Below are positions 16,080 through 24,112 of a DNA stretch of 64,000 nt, piece after piece. The notes beneath the pieces were generated by a model. It ran no database searches. It had not been told where the DNA came from and worked only from the letters and a program-made list of their open reading frames with translations. The DNA is from Armatimonadia bacterium. GTDB taxonomy: Bacteria; Armatimonadota; Zipacnadia; Zipacnadales; JABUFB01. Positions within the stretch are counted from its first letter, which is position 1. Each line of letters starts with the position of its first letter. Location of the stretch: positions 1 through 64,000 of the forward strand of contig JBDKVB010000067.1 of NCBI GenBank assembly GCA_039679385.1, given 5' to 3'. A program made the position numbers and the translations under genes.

Positions 16080-17003
16080 TCAGCCACCATGCCCCTCGCG
16101 GCCCTCGTGGAAGGCGAACACGCTAGTACCGATACCAAGGCGATCGCCTTCGCGCAAGGATGCCTGACGCTCGACGCGCAGCCCGTTGAGGAAGGTGCCA
16201 TTGGTGCTCCCCAGGTCCCGCAGCGTGTACCCGTCGCCCTCCTTGCGCACTTCGGCGTGATGAGAGGACACGAAGCGGTCCTTGAGCACCAGGTCGTTGT
16301 CGTCGGCTCGTCCCAGACGCGCGACCGGGCCAAGCTCAATCTGCTGCCCTTGTTGCAGACTTGCCTCCGGGGCCGCCAGCACGACCAGAACTGGCACTGG
16401 TTCCGGCTCAGGTTCAGGTTCGGGTTCCGGCTCGGGCTCCGGTTCAGGTTCCGGCTCTGGCTGCGGTTCAGGTTCCGGCTCGGGCTCGGGCGCAACTACG
16501 GGAAGGGCAACCGCCTCGAGATCCTCGATATCTACAGGTTCCGGCTCGGCATCGAAGAGTGCGGGCATCGTCTTCTGCGACTCCGGCGGCGTCAGGACGA
16601 TGGGCACGGCGGGTTCCGCAACCGGAGGCTCAAGCACGATCGGCTCACCCTCCAGCTTCACGTCAATGGGAGGCAGCGCATCTTCCTGCGGATGGACGAT
16701 CTCCGGCGCAAGGACAGCCGGCCCTGGCAGGGGTGGTATAGGAGGAGGAGTGAGAACCACAGGACCAGGAGGCGGCGCTACCGGTGTCGCCACGGGACCT
16801 GCCGCAACACCGCCCCCACCGGGTCGCAGCTCCCACTGGGTGACGATCTCGCGCTCGCCACGTCCCGTAGCCGGGCTGGGGCGTCCGCCTCTTCTGGACT
16901 CTGCCATCAGCCCGCGAAAAACCACCATTACGAACCCATAGAGGGCCGCAAGGAAGGCAAGCTTGCCGATCAGCACAATGGTACCAGGGACGAACTCGCT
17001 CAC
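16080..17003 (-). CDS. fhaB: Membrane-anchored FHA-domain protein with Pro/Glu-Pro repeat linker (FhaB-like)
   Basis: A 307-residue protein with an N-terminal hydrophobic helix (about 9-31), a long Pro-rich linker including about 20 Glu-Pro type repeats (~170-203), and a C-terminal FHA domain (~220-295) with GRADDNDLVL, SSHHAEV and LRDLGSTNGTFLNG, the residues that read phosphothreonine. FHA proteins in this context are substrates and partners of PknB and couple the kinase to RodA/PbpA. The Glu-Pro repeat is encoded by a GC-rich hexamer-like repeat (16394-16494) likely to vary in length. Compared with actinobacterial FhaB the linker is much longer. Confidence 0.82.
   Translation of the reverse strand: MSEFVPGTIVLIGKLAFLAALYGFVMVVFRGLMAESRRGGRPSPATGRGEREIVTQWELRPGGGGVAAGPVATPVAPPPGPVVLTPPPIPPLPGPAVLAPEIVHPQEDALPPIDVKLEGEPIVLEPPVAEPAVPIVLTPPESQKTMPALFDAEPEPVDIEDLEAVALPVVAPEPEPEPEPQPEPEPEPEPEPEPEPEPEPEPVPVLVVLAAPEASLQQGQQIELGPVARLGRADDNDLVLKDRFVSSHHAEVRKEGDGYTLRDLGSTNGTFLNGLRVERQASLREGDRLGIGTSVFAFHEGREGHGG
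16394..16494 (+). repeat. Imperfect GGTTCN/GGCTCN hexamer repeat in fhaB
   Basis: About 100 bases of tandem GGTTCAGGTTCC/GGCTCGGGCTCC-type units on the + strand, encoding Glu-Pro repeats on the - strand. Likely prone to slippage in units of six. Confidence 0.8.
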
Positions 17004-17068
17004 TGGCGCTGTGTCCTCTCCGGTGGTACGACGACTCTACGACCCATCTGGCACTCTGACCGCGAGCC

Positions 17069-17728
17069 CTACACCTCGTAGCGGAACCTGAACTGGCTGG
17101 TCCCCACTCCCACCACATCGTTGTCGCTCAGCACGTATGCGAAGACTCGAACACCGTTGACAAAGGTTCCGTTCCGACTGTCCAGATCCGAGACCTGGTA
17201 CCCCTCAAACCGCCAGTCGAACCGGCAGTGATGGCGCGAGACGTTCTCGTCGGGAACAAGGAGATCGACGTCGGCCGCTCGGCCCAGAACCACACCCGGC
17301 CTGAGTGCGCATCTTTGACCGGCGGCAGGTCCGTTCTCAAACACCAGCGCCGCCGCAAGGGGCGTCTCGTCGATCTGGGCCTCGACCGACACACGCCCGG
17401 AGCGCACGCTCTCGTCGGCAGTCAGGCGCACAAGCACCTTCGCGCCGTAGTTCCAGCCACTCAGTCGCGACTCCTGCTCTAGACCCCGTGCGGTCTCCTG
17501 CTCCAGTTGCTGCTGTGCTTCTCTCAGGTGCTGCAGATCTAGTGGATTCAGGATCGCGCACAGCCGGTTGGGTACCCGCGTGACGCCTGCCACGACCACG
17601 CGATGGTCCGACATCGCCTGCCACAGGGCTCGAGTGACCTCCACCGGGTGCATCGTGCCCGGGAAGGCGCGGTCAAAGGTTCCCTCGAGCAGGTTGGCGA
17701 GGGCCTCTTCAAGTCTGCGCAGACCCAC
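17069..17728 (-). CDS. fhaA: FhaA-like protein: DUF3662 domain plus FHA domain
   Basis: A 219-residue protein. Residues 1-120 match the FhaA N-terminal domain (DUF3662): the opening GLRRLEEALANLLEGTFDRAF and the VTRVPNRLCAILNP segment are characteristic. Residues ~128-215 form an FHA domain with LGRAADVDLLV, NVSRHHCRF and DLDSRNGTFVNG. In mycobacteria FhaA binds phosphorylated MurJ (MviN) and regulates wall synthesis. The start is GTG 17728, 9 bases after GGAG. First gene of the leftward cluster, served by the promoter at 17814-17843. It lacks the long disordered linker between the two domains seen in Mycobacterium. Confidence 0.85.
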   Translation of the reverse strand: MGLRRLEEALANLLEGTFDRAFPGTMHPVEVTRALWQAMSDHRVVVAGVTRVPNRLCAILNPLDLQHLREAQQQLEQETARGLEQESRLSGWNYGAKVLVRLTADESVRSGRVSVEAQIDETPLAAALVFENGPAAGQRCALRPGVVLGRAADVDLLVPDENVSRHHCRFDWRFEGYQVSDLDSRNGTFVNGVRVFAYVLSDNDVVGVGTSQFRFRYEV

Positions 17729-21062: not shown

Positions 21063-21066
21063 GCCC

Positions 21067-21095
21067 TTATCACGGGGCCCAGTCTTGGCTATAAT
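21067..21095 (+). promoter_or_regulatory. Sigma-70 promoter for the structured leader / sigma-like gene
   Basis: TTATCA (21067-21072), 17-base spacer, TATAAT (21090-21095). Predicted start about 21101-21102, 5 bases after the ackA stop begins the -35. Confidence 0.75.
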
Positions 21096-21184
21096 AGTGT
21101 GAAAGTGATCTTGCATTAACAGCCGGGCCAGTGCAGTCTGGCCGTCGTTTTGCCTGGAGCGCCGCACAGCAGCGATACTTTCGG

Positions 21185-21193
21185 AAGGAGGTG
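21185..21193 (+). promoter_or_regulatory. Strong Shine-Dalgarno inside the leader
   Basis: AAGGAGGTG, complementary to the 16S 3' end, 7 bases before GTG 21201. Its GGTG is part of the 8-bp stem 21190-21197/21277-21284, so it can be occluded. Confidence 0.65.
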
Positions 21194-21200
21194 CACAACG

Positions 21201-21305
21201 GTGAGAGTAAGCATGGCCGTCCACGTAGTTACTTCCCACTACCTGGGGCTTATTGCGTCCCCAGACTCGTGGCCGGTGTGCACCCCTGACAGGGAGCTCA
21301 CCTAG
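21201..21305 (+). CDS. Small leader ORF (34 codons)
   Basis: GTG 21201 to TAG 21305 encodes a 34-residue peptide (MRVSMAVHVV... ending DRELT). The frame is supported mainly by the excellent Shine-Dalgarno 7 bases upstream; an internal ATG (21213) is also in frame. It overlaps the pairing segments at 21215-21225 and 21266-21275, so translating ribosomes would change the fold of the leader. No run of a single amino acid typical of amino-acid attenuators is present, and no homologue is known to me. It may be a leader peptide or just a coincidental frame in a structured RNA. Confidence 0.35.
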   Translation: MRVSMAVHVVTSHYLGLIASPDSWPVCTPDRELT

Positions 21306-21363
21306 GCAAGCCCCCTCCCGCATTACGTAGCGGACGGCCACGAGCAAACTCAGCTCGTGGCCG
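21266..21363 (+). repeat. 10-base direct repeat forming terminator/antiterminator alternatives
   Basis: CTCGTGGCCG at 21266-21275 and 21354-21363. Either copy can pair with CGGCCACGAG at 21335-21344. Confidence 0.8.
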
Positions 21364-21372
21364 TTTTGTTTT
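21334..21372 (+). terminator. Strong intrinsic terminator upstream of the sigma-like gene
   Basis: Perfect 12-bp stem ACGGCCACGAGC (21334-21345) / GCTCGTGGCCGT (21353-21364), 7-base loop, then TTTGTTTTTCT. It ends 27 bases before the downstream start codon. Confidence 0.88.
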
Positions 21373-21398
21373 TCTCTGAGGTTGGTTCGGGAGGCACC

Positions 21399-21941
21399 AT
21401 GATGAAGCAGCTCATCGCACGTGCGCAAAAGGGTGACCCAGAGGCCAGGCAAGGCCTTGTGGCGGCCCTGCGCCCTCGCCTGACCAGTATGGCGCGCTAC
21501 TACGCCCGGTGCTGCCATGAGGACTACGACGACCTGCTGGGCGAAGCCTGGTTCGCGGTCTTCGATGCCCTGGGCATCACCAACCTGAGCATCGGTGAAC
21601 CCGACCAGTTCCTGCTCAAGCGCGCTCGCTGGCGGATCCTGGACTACATCAAGTGGGCCCGGCGCCGACGCTGCGGCGAGTATGAACCCGACCGCGCGCC
21701 GGAGACCACCGCCGATGTCGCCCCGGCTGTCATGGAAGAGGCGCTCATCGCCAAGATCGCCGAGGGGCTGTCCGATACCCAGCAGGCCGTCCTGCAGCAC
21801 CTGCTTCGCGGCGAGACCTGGCGCGAGGTCGCCGGTCACCTGGGTTGCAGCAGCGCGAACGTCGCCTACCACGTCCGCCAGATCCGCTCACGGGCGGCCG
21901 AGGTCGCGGGAGAGCTCCCGCTCAACGGCATGGCCTTCTGA
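21399..21941 (+). CDS. Sigma-70/ECF-like RNA polymerase sigma factor
   Basis: A 180-residue protein with an N-terminal region resembling sigma region 2 (IARAQKGDPEARQGLVAAL, then YDDLLGEAWFAVFDALG and RARWRILDYIKWARRRR) and a C-terminal helix-turn-helix like region 4 (LSDTQQAVLQHLLRGETWREV, HLGCSSANVAYHVRQIRSR). Length and layout fit a minimal ECF-type sigma factor; no anti-sigma gene is next to it. Start is ATG 21399 or 21402; GGGAGG (21389-21394) favours 21402 by spacing (7 bases). It is preceded by its own promoter, a structured leader and a terminator, so its expression probably depends on read-through. Promoter targets are unknown. Confidence 0.65.
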   Translation: MMKQLIARAQKGDPEARQGLVAALRPRLTSMARYYARCCHEDYDDLLGEAWFAVFDALGITNLSIGEPDQFLLKRARWRILDYIKWARRRRCGEYEPDRAPETTADVAPAVMEEALIAKIAEGLSDTQQAVLQHLLRGETWREVAGHLGCSSANVAYHVRQIRSRAAEVAGELPLNGMAF

Positions 21942-22149: not shown

Positions 22150-23022
22150 ATGGGTGTTTCCGCCACTTCCGCTTCGAAGGCTGCTGCTGGTTCCCGTCCA
22201 ATGAACGTGCTGGTGTTCGGCGCCCACCCGGATGACTGTGATTTCCGCTGCGGCGGCATCGCCCTCAAGTACCGGGCCCTCGGCCACCGTGTGAAGTTCG
22301 TCTCCATGGCGAACGGCGACGCCGGGCACTTTTCCATGGGAGGTGGGCCACTCGCAATTCGCCGCTATCAGGAGGCCCAGGCCTCGGCACGCATCGCGGA
22401 CATCGAGTACGAGGTGCTCGACCTCCATGATGGCGAACTCGAGGCCACCGTGCTCATGCGCAAGTGGGTCATCCAGATCATGCGCCGTTGGGAGGCCGAC
22501 CTCGTCATCTGCCATCGTCCCAATGACTACCATCCCGATCACCGCGCCGTCGGCGAGCTGGTCCAAGATGCCTCCTACACGGTCACGGTGCCCAACATCG
22601 CGCCACTTACCCCGCCTCTGAAGCGGGCTCCGGTGGTTGCCTATGCCTGGGACGGCTTCCAGCTTCCGAACCCCTTTGTTGCCGATGTGGCGGTCGACAC
22701 CGACGATGTCTTCGATCGCAAGGTCGACATGCTCCACTGCCACGTCTCCCAGGTCTACGAGTGGCTGCCCTACAGCAGCGGCGAGCTTGAGCGCGTGCCG
22801 GTTCCGGAGGTAGAGCGCCGCGAATGGCAGAAGCAGAGGATGCTGCGCCGCTTCGGAACCCAGGCCGATGCGGTCCGAGACAAGCTGGTACAGCTCTATG
22901 GTCCCACGCGGGGCCAGGCCGTGAAGACCTCCGAGGCCTTCATGATCTCGGAGTACGGACGGCGCCCTGCTGCGGAGGAACTGCCGGTCCTGTTCCCGTT
23001 CCTCCCCGCTCAGACCGGCTAG
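22150..23022 (+). CDS. PIG-L/LmbE-family zinc-dependent N-deacetylase (copy 1)
   Basis: A 290-residue zinc hydrolase of the LmbE/PIG-L fold, which removes N-acetyl groups from sugar amines and related small molecules. Zinc and catalytic residues sit in FGAHPDDCDF near residue 25 and in NDYHPDHRAVG at about 120 (HPDH). GDAGHFSMGG and EVLDLHDGELE are family blocks. The start is ATG 22150, 9 bases after AGGAGGAG. The frame runs on upstream through the previous gene in another phase and is not coding there. Closely related to the next gene (23243), so a tandem duplication. Substrate not known. Confidence 0.88.
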   Translation: MGVSATSASKAAAGSRPMNVLVFGAHPDDCDFRCGGIALKYRALGHRVKFVSMANGDAGHFSMGGGPLAIRRYQEAQASARIADIEYEVLDLHDGELEATVLMRKWVIQIMRRWEADLVICHRPNDYHPDHRAVGELVQDASYTVTVPNIAPLTPPLKRAPVVAYAWDGFQLPNPFVADVAVDTDDVFDRKVDMLHCHVSQVYEWLPYSSGELERVPVPEVERREWQKQRMLRRFGTQADAVRDKLVQLYGPTRGQAVKTSEAFMISEYGRRPAAEELPVLFPFLPAQTG

Positions 23023-23242: not shown

Positions 23243-24112
23243 ATGGGTCTCTACTCGAACTTCGGAGCCACCTCCGAGGACGCTAAGCGGCGTCTCAATG
23301 TATTGGTGTTTGGCGCGCATCCGGATGACTGCGACCTGGGTTTCGCAGGAAGCGCCATCAAGTACCGGGCCCTCGGGCACCGGGTGAAGTTCGTCTCCCT
23401 CACCAATGGTGATAGCGGCCACTCCTCCATGGGCGGAGGGCCCCTGGCGATTCGCCGCTACCATGAAGCCCAGGCTGCCGGTCGGGTCTCGGGCATCGAA
23501 TACGAAGTGCTCGACGTCCACGATGGCGACCTGACGCCGAACGTGTTCATGCGCAACTGGGTCATCAAGATCATCCGCGATTTCCGGGCCGACATCGTCC
23601 TGTGCCCGCGCCCGAACGACTACCATCCCGACCACCGGGCGACCGGCGTCCTCGTGCAGGACGCTTCGTACCTGGTCACGGTGCCGAATGTCGCCGCGCT
23701 GTCGCCGATCCTCGAGGTTCCGCCGGTAGTCGGTTATACCTATGATTCCTTCACGATCCCTTCGCCCTTCGTGGCCGACGTGGCAATCGACACCGATGAC
23801 GTGCTGGAGCGCAAGCGCGACGTCCTGCATTGCCATGAGTCGCAGGTCTACGAGTGGATGCCGACCAATGGCGGCTACCTTGACGAGATCTCCAGCGACG
23901 ACGAGGAGCGCCGGCAGTGGCTGCTCGAACGATCCTACAGGAAGTTCTCCGCCGTGGCCGACAGCGTGCGTGAGAGCCTTATCAAGTTCTATGGACCGGA
24001 GCACGGCAAGGCTGTGAAGACCGCCGAGGCCGTCATGGTCTCCGAGTACGGACGCTATCCGGCGCCCGAGGAGCTCAAGAGCCTGTTCCCGTTCTTCCCA
24101 GAGCAGGCCTAA
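23243..24112 (+). CDS. PIG-L/LmbE-family zinc-dependent N-deacetylase (copy 2)
   Basis: 289 residues, paralogous to the gene just upstream along its whole length. Shared blocks include NVLVFGAHPDDCDLG, KYRALGHRVKFVSL, GGGPLAIRRYHEAQA, NDYHPDHRATG, FVADVAIDTDDV and VSEYGRYPAPEEL. The zinc ligands (AHPDD, HPDH) are intact. Copy 2 differs mostly at its N terminus and in the loops around 215-230 (GGYLDEISSDDEE). The start ATG 23243 follows AGGAGTG. Separate -10 element and leader hairpin suggest it is regulated independently of copy 1. Confidence 0.88.
   Translation: MGLYSNFGATSEDAKRRLNVLVFGAHPDDCDLGFAGSAIKYRALGHRVKFVSLTNGDSGHSSMGGGPLAIRRYHEAQAAGRVSGIEYEVLDVHDGDLTPNVFMRNWVIKIIRDFRADIVLCPRPNDYHPDHRATGVLVQDASYLVTVPNVAALSPILEVPPVVGYTYDSFTIPSPFVADVAIDTDDVLERKRDVLHCHESQVYEWMPTNGGYLDEISSDDEERRQWLLERSYRKFSAVADSVRESLIKFYGPEHGKAVKTAEAVMVSEYGRYPAPEELKSLFPFFPEQA

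Follow-up and report, generated by a model that had tools for sequence, protein, structure and literature searches.

What controls the sigma-70/ECF-like gene that lies behind a long leader in the window, i.e. the whole 64-kb stretch of DNA that we analysed? The first-pass annotation had placed a terminator/antiterminator switch in front of this gene. Direct reading and scans confirmed the parts that it had named, that is, a promoter, a 34-codon ORF with a strong Shine-Dalgarno sequence (SD), a direct repeat and an intrinsic terminator (Table 1). The repeat CTCGTGGCCG is read at 21266-21275 and again at 21354-21363; CGGCCACGAG, its complement, stands at 21335-21344, and the flanking pair GGTGCACA/TGTGCACC is present at 21190-21197/21277-21284. 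The small ORF (uORF) has AAGGAGG as its SD (21185-21191). A promoter scan of the leader gave a single promoter-like site, TTATCA-17-TATAAT (0.2 in shuffles), and a terminator scan gave a 14-pair terminator with a T-rich tail, 27 nt upstream of the sigma start. Against 200 shuffles, the 273-nt leader transcript has the better fold (z -3.2), and the element occurs once in its own genome. For the small hairpin in the 5' UTR the support is not strong (across families, the fold z averages -1.3).

Table 1. Parts of the leader and the sigma gene, in positions of the window
Feature	Position	Orientation	Basis
Promoter CTTATCA-N16-CTATAAT	21066..21095	+	direct reading and promoter scan
Small 5' UTR hairpin	21122..21143	+	common at this place, weakly supported
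Strand S: SD and uORF start; partner is the uORF 3' part	21185..21203	+	folding, swap test
uORF, 34 codons, VRVSMAVHVVTSHYLGLIASPDSWPVCTPDRELT, GTG start; putative ribosome-progress sensor	21201..21305	+	direct reading
Strand 2: CTCGTGGCCG, antiterminator strand within the uORF	21266..21275	+	kept in f1, f3 and f4 relatives
TGTGCACC, pairs with strand S at 21190-21197; immediately 3' of strand 2	21277..21284	+	
Strand 3: CGGCCACGAG, terminator 5' arm; alternative partner of strand 2	21335..21344	+	
Strand 4: CTCGTGGCCG and T-rich terminator tail	21354..21373	+	terminator scan
Sigma-70/ECF-like gene, start 21399 or 21402	21399..21941	+	Pfam/TIGR profiles

The sigma product (180 aa) matches Pfam Sigma70_r2 (30.8 bits, cut-off 24) and TIGR02937 (sigma70-ECF; 45.0 bits, cut-off 42.9). 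Region 4 is weaker, with Sigma70_r4_2 at 20.2 bits, below the cut-off of 25.7. Using a profile built from ten ortholog sequences, we searched 291 Armatimonadota genomes and found orthologs in 67 of them, nearly always in single copy; the named relatives are mostly labelled Armatimonadota. The genes adjoining sigma, among which an ECF sigma factor may have its anti-sigma gene, vary in strand and size, and none recurs across the genomes compared. The position downstream of ackA, to which the first-pass annotation had tied the leader, is incidental, and the link was dropped. In the window, two alike neighbouring ORFs are found downstream of sigma (22150-23022 and 23243-24112); the first matches PIG-L and the second is similar by eye. 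On the minus strand, at 16080-17728, there are two ORFs with FHA-like ends, the first of which has a long Glu-Pro repeat (both by eye).

Are the pairing strands of the leader kept in its relatives? In each of eight leaders from the order of the window (G000-G003, G007, G008, G009 and G014), a promoter is followed by a small ORF and by the terminator GGCCACGAG...CTCGTGGCC, and the repeat is found in both uORF and terminator in seven of the eight. In G008 it reads CTCGCGG: all three strands, in the uORF and in both terminator arms, are altered jointly (CTCGTGG to CTCGCGG, CCACGAG to CCGCGAG). The exception, G007, has an alternative, longer possible pairing, GCCTGCTCATGG x CCACGAGCAGGC, which the folding test does not favour. 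The two sides of the proposed flanking stem at the SD also change together locally, as GGTGCACA/TGTGCACC in G000, GGGGGCATCACC/GGTGATGGCCCCC in G001 and GGGGTGCGCC/GGCGCACTCC in G014. Further local co-changes are seen in G248 (CCGGTAGC/GCTACCGG), G250 (TCCGGCAGC/GCTGCCGGG) and G249 (CCCGGCGGTT/AACTGCCGGG).

Not all of the proposed 1:2 / 2:3 / 3:4 geometry came through unchanged. The 2:3 and 1:2 pairings are kept, and co-change was found at 21266-21275 and in the terminator strands, but 21215-21225, originally taken as segment 1, has no counterpart even between the closest relatives (G001 and G002). It was dropped, and its place is taken by the SD and start of the uORF itself.

A common layout is also found in other families: a promoter, about 100 nt, a uORF with a strong SD, again about 100 nt, and sigma. 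Of 63 sigma leaders, 44 have the promoter [CT]TTA[AGT]CA-N16-C[TG]ATA, where 0.02 would be expected, and 45 have a strong-SD uORF, where 2.3 would be expected. A spacer of 15 nt occurs in one of these leaders, and spacers of 13, 14, 17, 18 or 19 nt in none. An intrinsic terminator between uORF and sigma is present in the window and its order; in some distant families it is weak or missing, and the terminator search gave no recognisable one in G043, G073-75, G248 and G261. This distribution bears on one alternative, namely that we see a mere ackA or leader terminator, or a free-standing small RNA of about 270 nt as the first-pass annotation had considered, with sigma uncontrolled. The element does have its own promoter, and a good terminator precedes the sigma start by 27 nt; yet promoter, uORF and pairing strands remain upstream of sigma throughout the phylum while the other neighbours vary, and we hold this alternative to be very improbable.

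To compare the two long-range helices across families, we used a swap test on 55 leaders from 20 families, in which a leader's own partner strands were set against partners exchanged between families, with row and column effects removed and 2000 permutations per helix. With uORFs that were partly chosen by eye, the pairing of SD/start with the uORF 3' part (S:2) had a mean residual of -4.2 kcal/mol (null -0.2 +/- 0.5, z -8.3), and that of the uORF 3' part with the downstream terminator region (2:3) one of -3.9 (null -0.3 +/- 0.7, z -5.3); 0 of the 2000 permutations reached either value. Five families (f1, f4, f15, f20 and f42) have positive residuals for 2:3. In f1 and f4 the test of this helix is weakened, since both share strand sequences. 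A comparison of RNAduplex energies with shuffles over long windows was too noisy and was replaced by ungapped helices, and then by the swap test. Strand conservation and co-change, both in the order and phylum-wide, support the switch that had been proposed before the sigma gene.

How would such a leader work? RNA polymerase would start at the TTA.CA-N16-CTATA promoter and transcribe a leader that contains a small ORF with strong initiation. As long as the uORF is free of ribosomes, SD/start would pair with the uORF 3' part, strand 2 would be hidden and the terminator would form (OFF). A ribosome that reaches the end of the uORF would sit on strand 2 during the synthesis of strands 3 and 4, and the terminator would form as well (OFF). 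A ribosome that stalls early, on the other hand, would keep the SD region open and leave strand 2 free to pair with the terminator 5' arm, giving read-through (ON). Possible causes of such general stalls are lack of charged tRNA, drugs and RNA damage. On the comparative sequence evidence, we think it quite probable that the leader is a ribosome-mediated transcription attenuator tuned to stalling in general.

Folding with a ribosome footprint predicts the 2:3 helix to be mostly likely with the ribosome early in the uORF and absent with the ribosome near strand 2, where the block by a ribosome covering strand 2 is true by construction; G007 does not fit. At equilibrium and without a ribosome, predictions often come out in favour of 2:3, so that the OFF state without translation would depend on the order of folding. 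We infer that this order is set kinetically and that stalling is the signal.

The same geometry of terminator and antiterminator would fit a ligand-binding riboswitch with the 5' part of the leader as aptamer, and the 5' UTR of about 100 nt does have some structure. However, no common 5' fold is seen across the leaders, the structured parts coincide with the translated ORF and its SD, and Rfam has no known class that matches. The Rfam search of the window bore out what had been stated from the first reading: zero families matched at the gathering score, and a relaxed threshold gave two weak antisense chance matches. A riboswitch is very unlikely, and we prefer a ribosome-mediated attenuator because the small ORF is the likely sensor.

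If the uORF is the sensor, does the leader respond to a particular peptide or to translation as such? Between the uORFs of G001 and G002 there are 3 synonymous and 20 nonsynonymous codon changes (of 23; 12/12/8 by codon position), with frame, start and the length of 59 codons unchanged. In the sigma gene of the same two genomes the changes by codon position are 6/4/34, and the final 140 nt of the leader, from strand 2 through the terminator, are nearly identical. Since frame and length are kept while 20 of the 23 codon changes are nonsynonymous, it seems that translation is selected and not the peptide: as judged from these sequences, selection seems to act on the uORF being translated and on RNA pairing, leaving the peptide itself free.

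Such changes argue against a specific nascent-peptide or single-amino-acid attenuator, in which the peptide or the codons of the uORF would stall the ribosome on one signal. Recurring C-terminal motifs in the uORFs (SPRSG-like in many families, SW in f1, f3 and f4) could be taken as a sign of such a mechanism, and so could a composition unlike that of the sigma proteins, with F, N, P and S over-represented. On the other hand, the SPRSG-like motif (CCTCGTTTCGG) is a near-complement of the SD region and can be explained by RNA pairing, and in G008 the uORF has SR in place of SW with the RNA pairing nonetheless kept. With the peptide hardly constrained and the motif explained in this way, we set aside the idea of a conserved arrest peptide. 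We were not able to find any run of codons for a single amino acid in the uORFs, and four identical residues within six occur in only two of them. Control by one specific signal is unlikely. Because there is no amino-acid run and the peptide is hardly constrained, the uORF should report stalling in general.

What, then, would the sigma factor do? We searched TTTAGCA-N16-CGATA in 291 genomes, with the reversed pattern as control. In sigma-positive genomes there are about 121 matches (sigma leaders included) against about 19 for the control; in sigma-negative genomes there are about 45 against about 46, and 16 of the 45 come from G062 and one G251 repeat. The excess is greatest in family f15, and in single genomes it amounts to 15 vs 1 (G053), 9 vs 0 (G054) and 13 vs 2 (G061). 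G062 has ten matches, yet no sigma gene at E<=1e-12; its genome is 82% complete, and the sigma gene is probably missing from the assembly. This recurrence suggests an autoregulated translation-stress sigma factor, which would recognise its own promoter type.

The list of candidate targets is a reading of the first genes behind the promoter, and many matches stand before other genes. Among the first genes are those for HflX (G053, G092, G254), RsgA (G249, G254) and MutS-domain-V proteins resembling MutS2 (G054, G099), which make up the proposed rescue set. The RNA repair set consists of RtcB (G063), RNA ligase (G053; G054 by similarity), KptA (G062) and Thg1 (G053). TROVE (G061), a RIO kinase, several GNATs, and ABC and MFS transporters are also found behind the promoter. 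So are tRNA genes, with 11 in G061, 3 tRNA-Leu in G062 and others in G053 and G054; the loci where tRNA genes follow the promoter include L266 (11 in a row), L272, L194, L199 and L218.

It is in families related to the window's that HflX, GNAT, transporter and tRNA genes stand behind the promoter. In the eight sigma-positive genomes of f1, f3 and f4, CTTADCA-N16-CTATA has 9 matches, 7 of which are leaders (reversed control 0); across the window's order, sigma-positive genomes have the pattern at their sigma leaders and at only two other sites. The one further match in the window's own genome is L232. Its product has Pfam matches ordered as in the Eis layout, all of them sub-threshold, and no PDB relative by sequence. 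We found no clear promoter before its orthologs in a check where L285, and perhaps other loci, are oriented otherwise than assumed. Since the promoter is not clearly kept in relatives, we rejected L232 as a sigma target and keep it only as a hint.

Behind the same promoter type we also see a second short transcript, whose mini-ORF has about 13-17 codons (e.g. MEYVTPAPEAGRRR), at L206, L205, L207, L204, L200, L213, L219 and L277. The end of the mini-ORF, CACCCGCCTCC, is the complement of its SD, GGAGGTGGGTG, and a hairpin usually comes next. A model of this RNA (R1) has matches at E<1e-10 in 18 of the 291 genomes. The sigma gene is present in 16 of these, and the match often lies next to it; in G286, G287 and G290 it lies upstream of sigma. 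It has no match in Rfam.

We consider it somewhat better than an even guess that this is a phylum-wide translation-stress sigma factor, whose uORF would sense any stall and which would drive its own promoter, tRNA arrays, RNA repair, ribosome-rescue GTPases, acetyltransferases, transporters and the mini-ORF RNA. That sigma governs a regulon for translation stress and RNA repair is a proposal which we reason mainly from other families of the phylum and judge slightly more plausible than not. If it is true, a largely unstudied phylum gains a stress response that is defined and has a readable promoter; the replacement of tRNAs, the repair of RNA and the rescue of ribosomes are brought under one sensor, and control of a master regulator by stall sensing has evolved more than once. 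The candidate target list is directly testable.

In a literature search that drew mostly on open-access papers, no sigma factor under such a uORF attenuator was found. Known systems share parts of the design. In the trp attenuator, three mutually exclusive pairings are set by the position of the ribosome on the leader ORF. Exclusive pairings are likewise decided by ribosome position in ilvB1 (PMC13236596). Our leader is like these in having three such pairings, and unlike them in that it lacks a run of regulatory codons, the SD/start of the uORF serves as segment 1, and the controlled gene is itself a regulator. The toiL (topAI) uORF senses translation stress from several antibiotic classes (PMC12121999), and the vmlR uORF senses translation stress too (PMC9226507); what lies under their control is a toxin-antitoxin pair or a single ABCF gene and no sigma factor. 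In the Anabaena trn operon with TrcR, a 26-tRNA array is switched on by translation stress (PMC10272220), and the RtcR-RtcB RNA repair operon is regulated by damaged tRNAs (PMC7790460). Both use protein regulators and no attenuated sigma factor, and tRNA array and RNA repair are controlled separately.

A close parallel in the way of working is WhiB7 (WblC) of the Actinobacteria, a transcription regulator behind a uORF attenuator that is induced by ribosome stalling in the uORF (PMC13236596), with a regulon that includes hflX, eis, other GNATs, ABC and MFS transporters and tRNAs (PMC7157823). Both have a regulator under a stall-responsive uORF, putatively so in our case, and the categories of the candidate regulon are similar. 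The regulator there is of the WhiB type, whereas here it is an unrelated, ECF-like sigma factor that has a promoter type of its own; the candidate targets here also include MutS2 and enzymes of RNA repair. Since we deal with a sigma factor, and with another phylum, the likeness is one of working and not of membership; if our reading is right, the system would be a counterpart of WhiB7 with an independent origin and would combine resistance and RNA repair in one regulon.
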